Assembly: GCA_023974075.1 (NCBI GenBank)
Contig: CM043793.1
Location: forward strand, 8,860,788 to 8,924,787
Reading direction: 5' to 3'
DNA: 64,000 bases
From: Chaenocephalus aceratus
Lineage: Eukaryota; Chordata; Actinopteri; Perciformes; Channichthyidae
Below are positions 18,501 through 27,500 of the stretch, piece by piece. Positions within the stretch are counted from its first letter, which is position 1, and every line of letters starts with the position of its first letter. The notes below the pieces were generated by a model. The model made no database searches. It had not been told where the DNA came from and saw nothing but the letters and a program-made list of their open reading frames with translations. The position numbers were made by a program, and so were the translations under genes.

Positions 18501-21500
18501 GGTTATTAGTAAAGTCTTATCTTACCTTATCTAGTGTTTGCTCGTGTAAAACCCATTTTATGGTTCATACAGTAAAAATACCAGGCTTAGGTATAGATCA
18601 TTTTAAACACCAATTACAAATTCTAAGTTCATGCATCATTATTTCAGAATTATTCAAGATTTTAAGAGGGACCAAAAAGTGAATGACTAAGCAGTTATAG
18701 TTTAAGAACACAAGCGTGCGCAAGAACGAACGCACACACACATACACACACGCGCACACACACACACACCTCATTAGATTCACAGACTAAAATTAGAAGT
18801 GTCTAATTACTAACAAGTAACACTAACACTATGTGTCTATCCAACGTTCTTATCTCTCTCTACCACATAACTGTACCTTCTTTGTCGCAGCTGTGGCTTC
18901 AGTCTTTCCAGAAAGACAGAAAGAAAAAACGAGAAAAGACAGAAAAGTCACACAATACACACAAACCATAGCATCACAGACACAGGGTTGGTCATACTGT
19001 AAGTATGCAGATGGGTTTTATGATATTGTGGATTGGGTACGGTGAATACAAGCTTGATGTTTATTGCCTCTGGTTTATTGGCATCCTACAAAACAAAGGG
19101 GGAAAATGACATCACCTGTGCAAGTCTTATGTTTCACTGCTGCACACTGACTTCATCCCAAACAGGATGTGTTGGACGATAGTGAACTGATACAATGAAT
19201 TATCAGTTCATTAGCTAATAAAGATGGATGGTTCAAGGCCAAAGATAATTTACGAGGCTTTCGGTAAAATATATATTACCAACAAACACACTCAAGATAA
19301 GCAGCTGCAACACGAGCATCATTTCTCATGTAGTGTTTATGCTTGCTACTTTGTGTGTAGATGGAAGAACCACAATAATATGGTGCCAGCTGACAGCATC
19401 ACTTTCCAAATGTTGGAAATAATTCATAACTTATTTAATTTGAGTTTATGACGATTCACTGCAATGCTGTGAAAAGTGAATACAACGTACCCTATTTTAT
19501 TGTAGACTAACCAATATTCCAATGTATCCCTTAGCTTTTTACAAATTCAGGATTGACTCATGTTTTTTATTAATAATAGGGCAATATATTGAAATACTAA
19601 TTTAAGACACTTGAATAAATGAATAAAATAGAGAGATCCCATTTACATTTATTTTGTGGTAAAAAAAGGCTCGGGTTTAACAAGATTGATTCAAGTGACT
19701 GCTTTAATATTGTACCTGCAGTGTCAATAATGTACAGCAGTCTGACTGTAAGACAGGGGTGAGTATTGAACCATGGTTAACAGGGTAATCTATAGGAGTA
19801 GTTTGAGAGGTGATTCAGCGGGAACATCTCTAAGGAGGAAAAATGAAGATGATTGGGACAGACAAACCTTGTTCACCTCCTCCTTTGACTAATAATAAGA
19901 AAAAGAAACATCAGTCAAGATATGTTAAGGGAAATGATAAGTGTCACATTTAAATGTCACAACCCACAAACAGAATGACTAAACTGAGAAAGAAAGGTTC
20001 TTCCTGGAAAAAAACAAATTGAATCAACGGGTGCTGCTTCATCCAGTGACCTAATCAAGTTTCTGGTATATATGAACGATACTTTGAATTTAATTCTGGG
20101 AAAAGTACGAGTCGACAGTGGCAGCAAATGGATTGGAATTATTGACAGGATGAGGTCGACCACTTTGTACTCATACAGACCCAAAGTAAATTTAAAAGCA
20201 CATTTAAAAAATCCTTCCGTTTCCACGTTTGACAGTATTTTTTATTAAAGGGGACCTATCATGGAAAATGCATGTATGTCTTTTATACATAAATATGTGT
20301 CCCCGGTGTGTCAGGGAACTCACAAAGTGTCAGAAAACCAACCCTCTCTCTTTTCCTCCATACCCACATCTCTAAAAACGGGGGTACAACAGAGCTGATC
20401 CAGATTTGCGTCCGATATGACCTAATATCGGCAATGCAGACCCACAGCACTATCAGAAACGTTGCTATCAGAAACAATGCCCGACTGTTTTGGACGTAAT
20501 ATGGTCGGTGCATGTTTACATTAGCATCGCTAACACTCAGAGCTAACCTGTACTGGAGAGCATGTGTGTGAAGAAGCAGGAAATAGAAAGGAACTCACCT
20601 TGTGGTATAACCGGCAAGAGAGAAAGCCTTTGAGCTCCATACTGTTTCAGACATAATCCTTGATAATCCATGATATGGCGTTTCATCACGGCAGAATCTG
20701 CCGGTAGAATCTCCCGCATGAGCAGGCATAAGCTCCGCCCCTCTTTTTTATCAATTTTTTTTTTTTTTTAAAGCTTTATACCCAAAATCAGCACTTTTGA
20801 AACAGGAAGTGAAATAGAGGGATATGAGGCATGGCTAGAATGGGGAATCTGTTTGGTATTTTGAGCAAAACACTTCATAGACATGTTTTTTATATATTTG
20901 TATATATCTGAGACCTATGCTATTGCCTAGAAATAGCATGATAGGTGACCTTTAATATTCAGTACATGCAAGGAGATCATTAAGCCTTAGTCCAAGTGGG
21001 TAGGACATCAAACATCAATAGAAATAATTTAATATGTGACAAACATGAGGAAGATACTTATAGGACCCTTTATTAGGCTGCTACTGGTTATTCCCTAAGT
21101 GAGGCTGATTATCTGCGTTTGGAGCACCCACCTGTTTGCTTTTAACGTCCTCCTTGGGGCGAAAGAAAAACAGAAAATGAAAAGAAAATGTTTGATATAA
21201 AGCCAACACCGTCATGCTCTCTCGTTGTCAGACACAAACGGTTTGTATAGAACTAGCTTTTAATGGCGTGGTACATTTAGGTGAATATTTGAGTTAATTC
21301 AAAATGCTTATTCTGTTACAGGAGAATAAGACCAGATTTGAACAGATTCAAGAAAAGGAATGGATATTAGAAAAAGCTGAAGCCTAACTAGACACCAACC
21401 TGTTTCTCTTTGTCTTTCTTTTCAGCCTGCAAGGACACACATTTGTGAGTGAGCGACGATGCCAGTATCTCACATTCATTCACACACTTACATTATAGCA

Positions 21501-24500: not shown

Positions 24501-27500
24501 GTTTTAGACTATTTAGTCATTGATATTTAATGTTATTGAAAAAAATATATTTTAGGGGCTTTAAAGCTGTTTCGTTATTGCATATTATTGGTCACTTGGC
24601 TACAAAACGACTGTCAGATATATGGCGGCAACACATCACTACTATGCACAGTTCATCGAATGAGAAAAGGAGAACAGGTAATGTGTCTGTTAACAAAGGA
24701 AATTGTTGGCCTGAATATGATTTTTAGTAAACTAAAAATATTGAATTGTGTTGCTAACAACATCAGAGTAGTTATGTCAACAATTTGTATTAAGTTTCTT
24801 GTGTAAAGTGTGTCTACTTTCATAAGTTAAGTTGGCAAAACTTAACTTAAAAATTATAGGTTTTAGGTCAACTAAGTTATGTAAGCTTGATTCGCAAAAG
24901 AATGGGGTCTCCAACGGAAATCTGCAGGGTTCTTCATCTACACTCCGATTTCCCACATTTGCGGCAATCTCTCCTGCTTTAAACGGGACTTTATCTTCCT
25001 GAAGTTAGCACTTTGTTTACATATTGTGTCATTTTGATGGACTAGGTTTGTTTTTTGTATGACAATATTATTTGGCACAACTTGTCTCGTTGAATTCTTA
25101 TTAGGTGGAATTCAAAATTATACGTTTTTAATAAATATGAAAGAAACAATTTCTGAGCAAAAAATAATAATGGAATTCTTAGTATGAAGAACTCAAACTT
25201 GTAGTTGTCTCAACAAAAGATTATTAGTTAAAAAGCAATGATAACCTTTCTTAATGAACATTAAACGAGATGATTTATATAAACTATGTGGAATCTCCAC
25301 ATTCGAATTCCTTATATTGAAATTAAGATTTTACTTAATTTTTATATTTGAAGAACTCAGGACAATTACAGAACTGTATTCTTTGAGGCTTTAAATATCA
25401 GTTTTGCTTCAGATATTCCCCCTTACCTCAGATCCTTCTGAGTCTGAGCAGGCAGACTGAAGATACAAGGGACACACAATCAGACACAAAGGTGAGTTGA
25501 GACAAAAAGAATAAAATACATTTACGAAATGATATAAAAGGTTTGTTGTTGTTACAGGCAGCTTTTGCTAATGCAGCCCGCCTACCCACCATGTCATCCT
25601 CCCCTTCATTGTCAGTGATAGCCTGGTGGAGATGGTATGGAAATAAAAACAAACAAATTTATGAAAAAAAAGTATGACGAAGAAAATATGAATACATAAA
25701 GATAAAACTAAAACATAAGATGCAGTCTGAGGTGTGGTGCTGTCTCAGGTTGAGCTAGACGCCATTGAAAGTACATGACACACTCGTTAAGTCAGGATAT
25801 TATAACTTCCTAAATTAACCACCAATCAAAGTCATTGTATCATTTGTTACAAACATCCTTATAATGAACAAAGTGATCTACCATATTTCACAATGTTATA
25901 TATGAAACTAGCCAGTAAGTTACTCTATGTTTTGTTGGGAGATAACCTCCCTCTGGAGGAGCTTATGGATGCTAGCCTTTGCAGACCATTTACATCAGGG
26001 GGGTCAAACTCAATTTCATCGCGGGCCACATTCGCATTATGGTTGCACTCAAAGGGCCAGTTGTAACTTCAAGACTATATAAAAATACATGTATAAATGT
26101 TTAATATATAAAATAATGTGTTATATAAATTCCTGTATTGCCTCTGCATTGGATTATTATCGGATAGGGTAATAACTTCATAATTAACTACGTCTGAAAG
26201 CAGAAGTCTCGGGCAAATAATTGCAAGTCTCTTCAGTGAGAATGTCATAAAAATGATTTAAAGAGAAAAGCAAAATTCTGGAAAAAAAGTCAGAATAAAA
26301 AAGAAGAAGTGACATTTGAAAAAAAAAGTAAAATCTTGAAGAAACAAAGTCAAATTCTGAGAAAAAAGTCAAATTTGAGATGCATTGTGGGACATGTAGT
26401 TTATGGGCAACGTGCTTCTGTAAATCGGCCTGTAACCGTATAATAAACGTATTATATTTTTTGCAAGCTCTTGTGGGGCCGCATGAAGTGAAGTCACGGG
26501 CCGGATTTGGCCCCCGGGCCTTGAGTTTGACACCCCTGATTTACATAAACCACAACCAATATAAAACAATACAAGAAAGGGAAAACCCCTTTTTAATGTG
26601 ACAGCATACAGATAGTTGACGATTCATGTTTGGGTGTCCACATACGTTTAGCTATGTTGAGCATTTGCTATTAAAAAATAATAAGTAAATAAAAATAATA
26701 AGGATTTTTTTATTTTTCTGAGTCTCTAACCTAAACTTTTCAAACATAATTAGTTTTGACTTGATGTAGAAAGATGAGCACAGGAGTAGACAATAACATT
26801 AACGATGTCAGTGAGCTAGCATGTACAATGATTGATTTATGTTATTGGGTACACCCGTGTGTGAGACAAGTGAAACAGTTTAAGCAATAAAAAGTAATTT
26901 TTTCTAAATTGAACGATTAGTTTGAGAGTCGACAGGTTGACCCACCTCCTCATCTAGCTCCTCGGGTTCCTCCTCATTCTCAAGCTTTTGGAAAGAAGCA
27001 GCAGCGTATTGATTTATGTTGTACATACATCGTATTAGATGGAACATATTATTTGTGGGAGTAAATACCAGGAGTATAGGAAGGAGGAGGAGATATCAGG
27101 ATTCAACTAAACATAGATACTGTACTGGGTAACAAGGGGTTCAGGGCGGGTATTTGATTCAGGGAGTGTTTGGTTGTTGATGTTTTTGTTCCAGGAACAA
27201 CAGGAGAGAGGGGAGCGAGGGTAAACAAAAACCTGACATACCCTGTCCTCCTCAGCAGTTAACTGTAGAGAGAAAGACACACGCTCATTCTCACCTTACT
27301 TACACAACACACTTTCTGGGCAAACCAATGACAAGACCAGCTTCTATAAACGAGCTTAATCCTGTTATTTTACAGAAAGATTTCATAAGATTACCTCAAA
27401 TTTAAATAGTCAAGTTAATGTCCCAAGATAGATACAAGAGGCAGAATTTACCACTATGTATATACTGTAGATTTCTAATATAATTTTTCAAGGTTTCCAC

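Follow-up and report, generated by a model that had tools for sequence, protein, structure and literature searches.

A conserved series of predicted frame-preserving micro-exons in the MUN-coding region of teleost unc13ba

At the core of the vesicle-priming machinery lies the MUN domain. To our knowledge, splice variation of Munc13 is known mainly at the N-terminus, in single small exons, or in one other MUN loop. A long intron between two conserved MUN exons of Chaenocephalus aceratus raises the question whether a whole series of short exons lies in it, and what these would add to the protein. The window, i.e. the whole stretch of DNA analysed here, comprises 64,000 nucleotides (GCA_023974075.1, CM043793.1, 8,860,788-8,924,787, forward strand), and all coordinates below are window positions. 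With a probability of roughly 0.85, the segments in question are conserved, frame-preserving unc13ba micro-exons that are likely spliced combinatorially into a predicted disordered, charged MUN loop of 0-102 residues, which would likely tune priming.

Host gene and candidate segments

The host gene on the minus strand is teleost unc13ba (Munc13-2). Its closest relatives in the protein listing carry the name unc-13 homolog B or Ba, the joined flanking exons match Pfam PF06292 (MUN), and additional MUN exons of the gene are present in order according to tblastn, with the C-terminal C2 region downstream of MUN (HSPs 3851-3320). No C1-C2B match was found within the window by tblastn, its expected place being beyond the window end; C1 and C2B domains are found in the relatives P0024 and P0028. 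The exon at 45642-45919 contains a long poly-E run. A transposase-like stretch at 12731-12907, for which a Pfam search returned no family, is presumably Tc1-like.

Both flanking exons were correctly placed by a previous sequence-only reading of the window and read as MUN domain; the intron between them measures 18,443 bp. In 5ue8 chain A (rat Munc13-1) the alignment over the exon junction covers residues 737-790, which places the junction at about residue 1290/1291 of rat Munc13-1 if the chain starts at 529, as given in an excerpt of PMC5344669. It is located in the C-D half of MUN.

The eleven AG...GT segments (Table 1) each occur once on the minus strand at the proposed sites, are multiples of three, stop-free and in phase 0, and sum to 306 nt, i.e. 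102 residues. All eleven stay within the micro-exon size limit (≤51 nt), seven of them at ≤27 nt. A composition rich in charged residues had been proposed for every segment; it holds for the insert as a whole (D, E, K and R make up 58 of its 102 residues), but segments 4 (3/10) and 11 (3/9) are not notably charged. The whole insert has a net charge of -24 and is acidic in its first half (modules 1-6, net -26) and near neutral in its second (modules 7-11, net +2).

Table 1. Flanking exons and micro-exons of the unc13ba array, in the order of the gene
Feature	Position	Strand	Length (nt)	Peptide	Net charge	Evidence (modules: insert-bearing fish proteins)
Upstream conserved MUN exon (contains SMGAKQ; phase 0 end)	29483..29560	-		...LEKMFESMGAKQ		tblastn and PDB alignment to Munc13-1; Pfam MUN
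Micro-exon 1	27242..27262	-	21	LTAEEDR	-2	40/51
Micro-exon 2	26946..26984	-	39	LENEEEPEELDEE	-9	42/51
Micro-exon 3	25590..25622	-	33	AITDNEGEDDM	-5	43/51
Micro-exon 4	25427..25456	-	30	SACSDSEGSE	-3	39/51
Micro-exon 5	23128..23154	-	27	VDNKEKENK	0	28/51
Micro-exon 6	22351..22395	-	45	DESSGYDDSEEEQEK	-7	13/51
Micro-exon 7	22051..22065	-	15	LDKEK	0	34/51
Micro-exon 8	21400..21426	-	27	AEKKDKEKQ	+1	45/51
Micro-exon 9	21132..21152	-	21	EDVKSKQ	0	41/51
Micro-exon 10	19868..19888	-	21	SKEEVNK	0	36/51
Micro-exon 11	18877..18903	-	27	TEATAATKK	+1	35/51
Downstream conserved MUN exon (contains LDTEAADI; phase 0 start)	10951..11039	-		LDTEAADILNDLQVKL...		tblastn, PDB alignment

Modules in teleosts and other vertebrates

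The fish comparison set consists of the 120 proteins listed out of 583 matches (annotation sources ncbi, uniref and nr). Among these 120, 51 are of unc13ba type with an insert and belong to 36 species, including Conger, Denticeps, Danio, Pygocentrus, Gadus and many percomorphs. In 35 teleost species, annotated unc13b proteins hold from one to all modules with their order kept, as read by a parser that imposes module order and uses hand-chosen reference peptides. Of the 51 insert-bearing proteins, 48 have two or more modules of the window and two have a single one, while Lepidogalaxias possesses none with certainty; these counts exclude spurious or doubtful assignments in the ragged P0036, P0056, P0059, P0061, P0097 and P0137, which were removed by eye. 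Modules 1-7 of Pogonophryne albipinna (P0036) are identical to the window, and the zebrafish annotation includes an insert-bearing form (P0046). Conservation in related fish, on which the sequence-only reading had staked its claim beforehand, is thus found in annotated teleost unc13b proteins. Mean identity to the window amounts to 0.89 for module 8 (same length in 45/45 copies) and 0.92 for module 10 (over 26 same-length copies of 38, the length differing in 12), and module 9 is poorly conserved (0.44, 39 same-length copies). Two extra modules, 3x and 7x, exist in other fishes and were not found in the window. Over-inclusive gene models do occur, because one Gasterosteus model holds a 33-residue stretch resembling a retained intron. 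An earlier short-query protein search yielded 21 short proteins; of 11 examined, several extend into intron sequence and others show direct joining.

Judging from these annotated sequences, the eleven segments are likely taken up into the transcript in many different combinations. Such combinations had been anticipated, and 21 module patterns are present among the 45 cleanly parsed of the 51 insert-bearing fish proteins. The flanking exons are joined directly in 61 of the 120 listed teleost proteins, and both direct-joining and insert-bearing proteins are listed for Maylandia, Gasterosteus, Sphaeramia, Amphiprion and Spinachia. Direct joining in Nothobranchius rachovii P0141 counts against use of the array; we take entries of this kind to derive from transcriptomes. 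When proteins of one species with differing inserts are compared (23 pairs), whole modules alone account for the difference in 20 pairs, and whole modules plus a 33-residue stretch in one more. Single modules separate isoforms in several cases: module 5 in Amphiprion and in Solea, module 6 in Maylandia and in Amphiprion, module 11 in Amphiprion. Neuronal micro-exons regulated by SRRM3/4 possess a UGC motif just upstream of the 3' splice site. This SRRM4-type motif is not enriched in the array (6 motifs in the eleven 38-nt upstream stretches vs 5.9 expected), with TGC located within this stretch in 4 of 11 micro-exons. The Musashi-type UAG motif occurs 30 times in eleven 150-nt stretches vs 20.4 expected.

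The family had been expected to join the two flanking exons directly. This applies to rat Munc13-1 and to 83 of the 87 proteins, mostly of tetrapods, that were newly listed in a wider-vertebrate search (120 of 2481 matches listed), but not to teleost unc13b generally, where annotations with the insert are widespread. Two isoforms of the lizard Podarcis raffonei contain a 52-residue insert rich in E, K, D, Q and N at the same junction, unrelated in sequence; a model of the lizard Phrynosoma displays an apparent intron read-through there, and a Clupea protein among the 87 has a bb-type insert. One Polyodon isoform among the matches listed joins directly, and no insert at the array junction is present among the listed mammalian UNC13B proteins. 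These 83 directly joining proteins lend no support to a similar insert throughout the vertebrates, although rarer inserts may exist in tetrapods or non-teleost fish. Eight of the 120 listed fish proteins are unc13bb with an acidic insert, five of which begin (I/T)A(T/S)EEA. The ohnolog unc13bb of the same genome (C12 copy) possesses a smaller acidic array with segments of 21, 72 and 72 nt, reading SATEEAL, LNGEM...EEE and FEESDDEE...VE; the remaining three unc13 loci of this genome show none. The array most likely predates the teleost genome duplication, because the second copy holds a related one.

Predicted loop and alternative explanations

A surface loop of MUN had been suggested as the position of the insert, and a loop is likewise predicted by AlphaFold2 for Garra rufa P0053. 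Overall model confidence is low (mean pLDDT 47 and 53), so that the local helix-loop-helix reading alone was used: the bulk of the insert has a pLDDT of 28-31 and is flanked by helices at about 84-93. The insert is accordingly predicted to be disordered and located between two MUN helices.

Short AG...GT intervals are frequent, and several splice sites of the array are weak: the splice-site sums of segments 8, 10 and 11 are 3.3, 4.3 and 1.4 bits, and donors are weak at micro-exons 6, 10 and 11. The eleven segments might consequently be regarded as chance intervals in a long intron that form no exons. Blind scans argue against such a reading. In a splice-site scan of the intron the top four AG...GT segments all belong to the eleven, and micro-exon 9 has the highest splice score of the entire intron. 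Ten non-overlapping segments reach at least 6 bits, eight of them multiples of three and six among the eleven, vs two multiples of three out of 14 on the reverse strand. The scan misses five of the eleven, segments 2, 8 and 11 because they are below the acceptor cut, and segments 6 and 10 because shorter overlapping intervals outscored them. A scan for stop-free, frame-keeping segments with at least 40% charged residues yields 11 matches in the intron, nine of them among the eleven. The same scan gives 0.98 matches on average and no more than 4 in any of 60 dinucleotide shuffles, 4 matches on the reverse strand, and 3 in the other introns of the gene (37,972 bp). Chance agreement of the eleven had been judged very unlikely beforehand, and both scans stand above their controls. 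As their splice sites are weak, the case of segments 8, 10 and 11 stands on conservation in other fish, and it is this conservation, with the same peptides at the identical junction in 35 teleost species, that rules out the chance reading, to which we attach practically no credence.

Real exons need be neither optional nor functional. Instead of a combinatorial device, teleost Munc13-2 could have in the insert a largely constant extension, of which module 6 alone is commonly optional, given that modules 1-4 co-occur in most insert-bearing proteins and module 6 in 13 of 51. This is quite improbable in view of the 61 listed proteins without insert, some sharing their species with insert-bearing ones, and of short subsets such as 11, 10+11, 8+11 or 5+6. 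The micro-exons may also be real but represent a near-neutral, splicing-tolerant expansion of a loop able to gain or lose charged modules with no tuned function; many of the isoforms would then reflect noisy splicing or over-complete annotation. The predicted disorder of the loop, the absence of 3x and 7x from the window, the poor conservation of module 9, the variable length of module 10 and the unrelated low-complexity charged insert of the lizard are consistent with this, as is the poly-E run mentioned above, which suggests that MUN-domain loops tolerate charged expansions. The conservation of modules 8 and 10, the frame preserved in 11/11 segments and the span of the modules from Danio and Pygocentrus through percomorphs count against it. 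We lean against near-neutrality, while granting it real weight.

Under the preferred reading of conserved, combinatorially spliced micro-exons, splice choice would lengthen and charge one MUN loop by 0 to 102 residues; with the unequal charge of modules 1-6 and 7-11, it would set loop length and charge alike. The loop may then modulate, electrostatically and sterically, the way in which Munc13-2 bridges vesicle and plasma membrane or contacts SNARE proteins, and its alteration would likely adjust vesicle priming in nerve cells. A further-reaching version, rather unlikely in our opinion, sees an ancient, splice-set electrostatic rheostat of 11-13 micro-exons, retained by both ohnologs from the teleost genome duplication onwards, its 2^11 possible combinations in the present gene leading to neuron-type-specific length and charge of the MUN loop and thereby to neuron-type-specific priming rates. 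If true, a spliced, charged, modular insert would constitute a new site for nerve cells to set their release properties and would distinguish teleost from tetrapod Munc13-2.

Comparison with known systems

A description of an unc13b MUN micro-exon array was not found in the open-licence PMC literature searched, nor was unc13 found by word search in the main text of zebrafish micro-exon studies. Titin PEVK and triadin contain series of numerous small exons, all in phase, that encode charged peptide of low complexity; these are unrelated muscle proteins, and "titin-like" denotes an analogy of layout only.

Within the UNC13 family, the excerpts cited report micro-exons of 9 nt in unc-13 of C. elegans and Drosophila and of 6 nt in mammalian Unc13c, located between the calmodulin-binding and C1 regions, cell-type specific and required for synaptic function (PMC12287369). 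They share with the array an optional, frame-keeping nature in an UNC13 gene, the optionality of the array being suggested by annotated isoforms of other fishes, but are single exons of 6 or 9 nt before C1, in contrast to eleven of 15-45 nt within MUN. Residues 1408-1452 of rat Munc13-1 form an alternatively spliced, flexible and poorly conserved MUN loop (PMC5344669, in excerpt), a similar loop in the same domain but at another site than about 1290/1291, and the excerpt describes no micro-exon array for it. Mouse Unc13b possesses a 6-nt SRRM4-dependent micro-exon (Quesnel-Vallieres 2015, via excerpts of PMC12287369 and PMC5247714), an alternative micro-exon in the same family member, yet a single one of two codons. 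The Musashi-dependent photoreceptor exon of mouse Unc13b (PMC7948980, in excerpt) is a neuron-type-specific alternative exon of the same gene and, unlike the array, a single exon.

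The segment array and its chance expectation

The sequence-only reading had at least eleven in-frame candidate micro-exons inserted in the MUN domain of an UNC13 gene, here unc13ba (Munc13-2). This observation is correct, and scans and conservation support it more strongly than that reading could. Each segment matches exactly once on the minus strand. All eleven are preceded by AG and followed by GT, measure a multiple of three and are stop-free in the phase of the flanking exons. They total 306 nt (102 codons), spread across 8,386 bp. Both flanking exons belong to the MUN domain. 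With a rat sequence as bait, the remaining conserved unc13 exons are seen to run in order along this strand, between 63.5 kb and 3.3 kb.

When all AG...GT intervals of 9-60 nt in the 18,443-bp intron are scored blind with standard splice-site matrices, segments 9, 4, 7 and 1 take the first four places. Among the non-overlapping intervals of at least 6 bits on the gene strand of this intron, 8/10 are multiples of three and 6/10 belong to the eleven; the reverse strand has 2/14 multiples of three. Segments 2, 8 and 11 were missed, being below the acceptor cut, as were 6 and 10, where shorter overlapping intervals scored higher. A second scan, limited to stop-free intervals in which 40% or more of the residues are charged, yields 11 matches in the intron, nine among the listed segments; one of the two extra matches is a fragment of transposase-like sequence. 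The controls give a mean of 0.98 and a maximum of 4 (60 dinucleotide shuffles), 4 (reverse strand) and 3 in 37,972 bp (other introns of the gene).

Features in and around unc13ba (window coordinates)
Feature	Position	Strand	Remarks
Upstream flanking exon	29483-29560	minus	MUN domain
Segments 1-11	27262 down to 18877	minus	predicted micro-exon array
Downstream flanking exon	10951-11039	minus	MUN domain
Transposase-like copy	12561-12907	minus	last intron; similar to that in the P0036 model
MUN exon with K/E-rich, then near-pure poly-E stretch	45642-45919	minus	stretch just upstream of conserved EEQGPSIQNLEFWPKL
57-nt segment STVDTQQQQSIKAFFEMQM	60458-60514	minus	100% identity to a Pogonophryne P0036 stretch between two MUN exons
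Likely remnant of optional teleost exon, VLHKID...APTTFRIRKVDFYA	42965-43042	minus	stop in 5' half
Apparent 1-nt indels in conserved exons	~47499-47514, 37822-37836, 37808-37819	minus	

Conservation and modularity in teleost proteins

A protein search with a full-length-sized query, scored only over insert and flanks (E up to 0.001), matched 583 proteins among 3008 candidates; the following figures come from the best 120 of the 583. The flanking exons are joined directly in 61 of these 120, and scripted sorting assigned an insert to 54 and could not place 5. Visual inspection puts eight of the 54 in the unc13bb type (the ohnolog); the other 46 and the 5 unsorted make 51 insert-bearing unc13ba-type proteins from 36 species, including Conger, Denticeps, Danio, Pygocentrus, Gadus and many percomorphs. 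The module parser imposes a fixed order, and spurious assignments in six ragged proteins were taken out by eye. Among these 51 listed matches, modules 1-6 are present in 40, 42, 43, 39, 28 and 13 proteins and modules 7-11 in 34, 45, 41, 36 and 35, respectively; 48 possess at least two of the eleven modules and two possess one. Lepidogalaxias (P0097) has no certain module, so that 35 species remain among the matches listed. The Etheostoma model P0041 lacks the upstream flanking exon.

Two additional modules of the listed proteins, 3x (SEESK-like, 32/51) and 7x (S.SKKEK-like, 30/51), were not found in the window, and the 624-bp intron at the expected site of 7x contains no 7x-like peptide. A perfect 94-bp AC/TG repeat (21862-21955) occupies part of the intron where other fishes have 7x. 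Modules 1-7 of Pogonophryne albipinna P0036 are identical to the window, and this agreement with an Antarctic fish points to a probable notothenioid source of the DNA. In the P0036 model, micro-exon 7 is joined to transposase-like sequence, probably through an annotation error. Pfam reports no family for the similar copy in the window, which we take to be Tc1-like.

Within species, 23 pairs of unequal inserts were compared (Gasterosteus, Maylandia, Amphiprion, Solea, Garra, Myxocyprinus), omitting identical-insert pairs (Siniperca, Chanodichthys, one Solea pair). Whole modules account for all differences in 20 pairs, 17 nested and 3 also swapping one whole module, and single-module differences are seen for modules 5, 6 and 11. 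In one Gasterosteus pair, whole modules differ together with 33 residues resembling a retained intron; the scripted comparison counts this pair as an 18th nested one. Substitutions are seen as well in the Garra and Myxocyprinus pairs, which therefore may represent separate loci. Direct-joining and insert-bearing proteins occur together in Maylandia, Gasterosteus, Sphaeramia, Amphiprion and Spinachia. We read these differences between annotated protein models as alternative splicing.

Paralogs, other vertebrates and further features of the gene

The genome contains five unc13 loci with these exons. One (C12), unc13bb-like as judged by its flanking exon, has a homologous intron of 4,518 bp. It contains three segments that preserve the frame, SATEEAL of 21 nt and, of 72 nt each, LNGEMEEENEEEMKKEEEQAGEEE and FEESDDEEEEEEEEEEVGEKNEVE; they resemble the Solea P0099 insert. 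In both bb and ba the first module measures 21 nt, with the pattern (I/T/S)A(T/S)EEA in bb and (L/M/I/Y)(T/A)AEEE in ba; this similarity, over seven residues, suggests a common origin of both arrays before the teleost duplication. Two other loci are too short for an array, with a homologous intron of about 80 bp (C17) and exon matches 178 bp apart (C4), and the same charged-segment scan found none in the 3,809-bp intron of C3. A 27-nt AG...GT segment, EEGVVSFCK (920-946 of the C3 paralog sequence L008), has the top splice score of the homologous intron, 16.8 bits, and could represent a lone micro-exon in a different unc13 gene.

The last search combined tetrapod-like flanks with a consensus insert, and the best 120 of 2481 matches were listed. 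Direct joining is found in 83 of the 87 newly listed proteins, human P0214 and a paddlefish isoform among them. The remaining four are two of Podarcis raffonei, one of Phrynosoma (read-through-like) and one of Clupea (bb-type insert). At the identical exon junction, the Podarcis proteins (UNC13B; P0145, P0169) carry an insert of 52 residues that is unrelated and rich in E, K, D, Q and N, possibly an independent use of this site.

Elsewhere in the gene, the poly-E stretch, absent from the Pogonophryne P0036 model, forms a second charged loop in the MUN domain. The 57-nt segment is possibly optional, since it is missing from rat and most fish models seen. The peptide of the likely exon remnant occurs in at least five fish proteins among the matches listed, directly upstream of EHEKHRL. 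The 1-nt indels are likely assembly errors, because P0036 is uninterrupted there (NNFPASSK, KKLDCPDPAV).

Position of the insert and known UNC13 exons

The junction aligns gap-free to Munc13-1 chains and, provided that residue 529 is the first of 5ue8 chain A, falls near residues 1290/1291; PMC5344669 assigns residues 1255-1517 to the CD subdomains of MUN. Garra rufa P0053, which has an insert without modules 5, 6, 7 and 7x, was modelled twice with AlphaFold2, each time at low overall confidence. In both, most of the insert (pLDDT 25-31) lies between two MUN helices (pLDDT ~79-89 in the first model, 84-93 in the second). The structural part of the earlier interpretation is supported; its functional part, tuning of vesicle priming by splice choice, is a hypothesis. 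Modules 1-6 have a net charge of -26, modules 7-11 of +2. From junction site, predicted loop and module charges we infer that the insert may give the C-D half of the MUN rod a charged tether or bumper that splicing can adjust.

No description of the array was found in the literature searched on UNC13 and micro-exon clusters. UNC13 micro-exons are already known, one of them functionally important (PMC12287369); these are single exons at another place, whereas the teleost array lies in MUN. The separate alternatively spliced MUN loop described in PMC5344669 comprises residues 1408-1452, a different site from that of the teleost insert at ~1290/1291.
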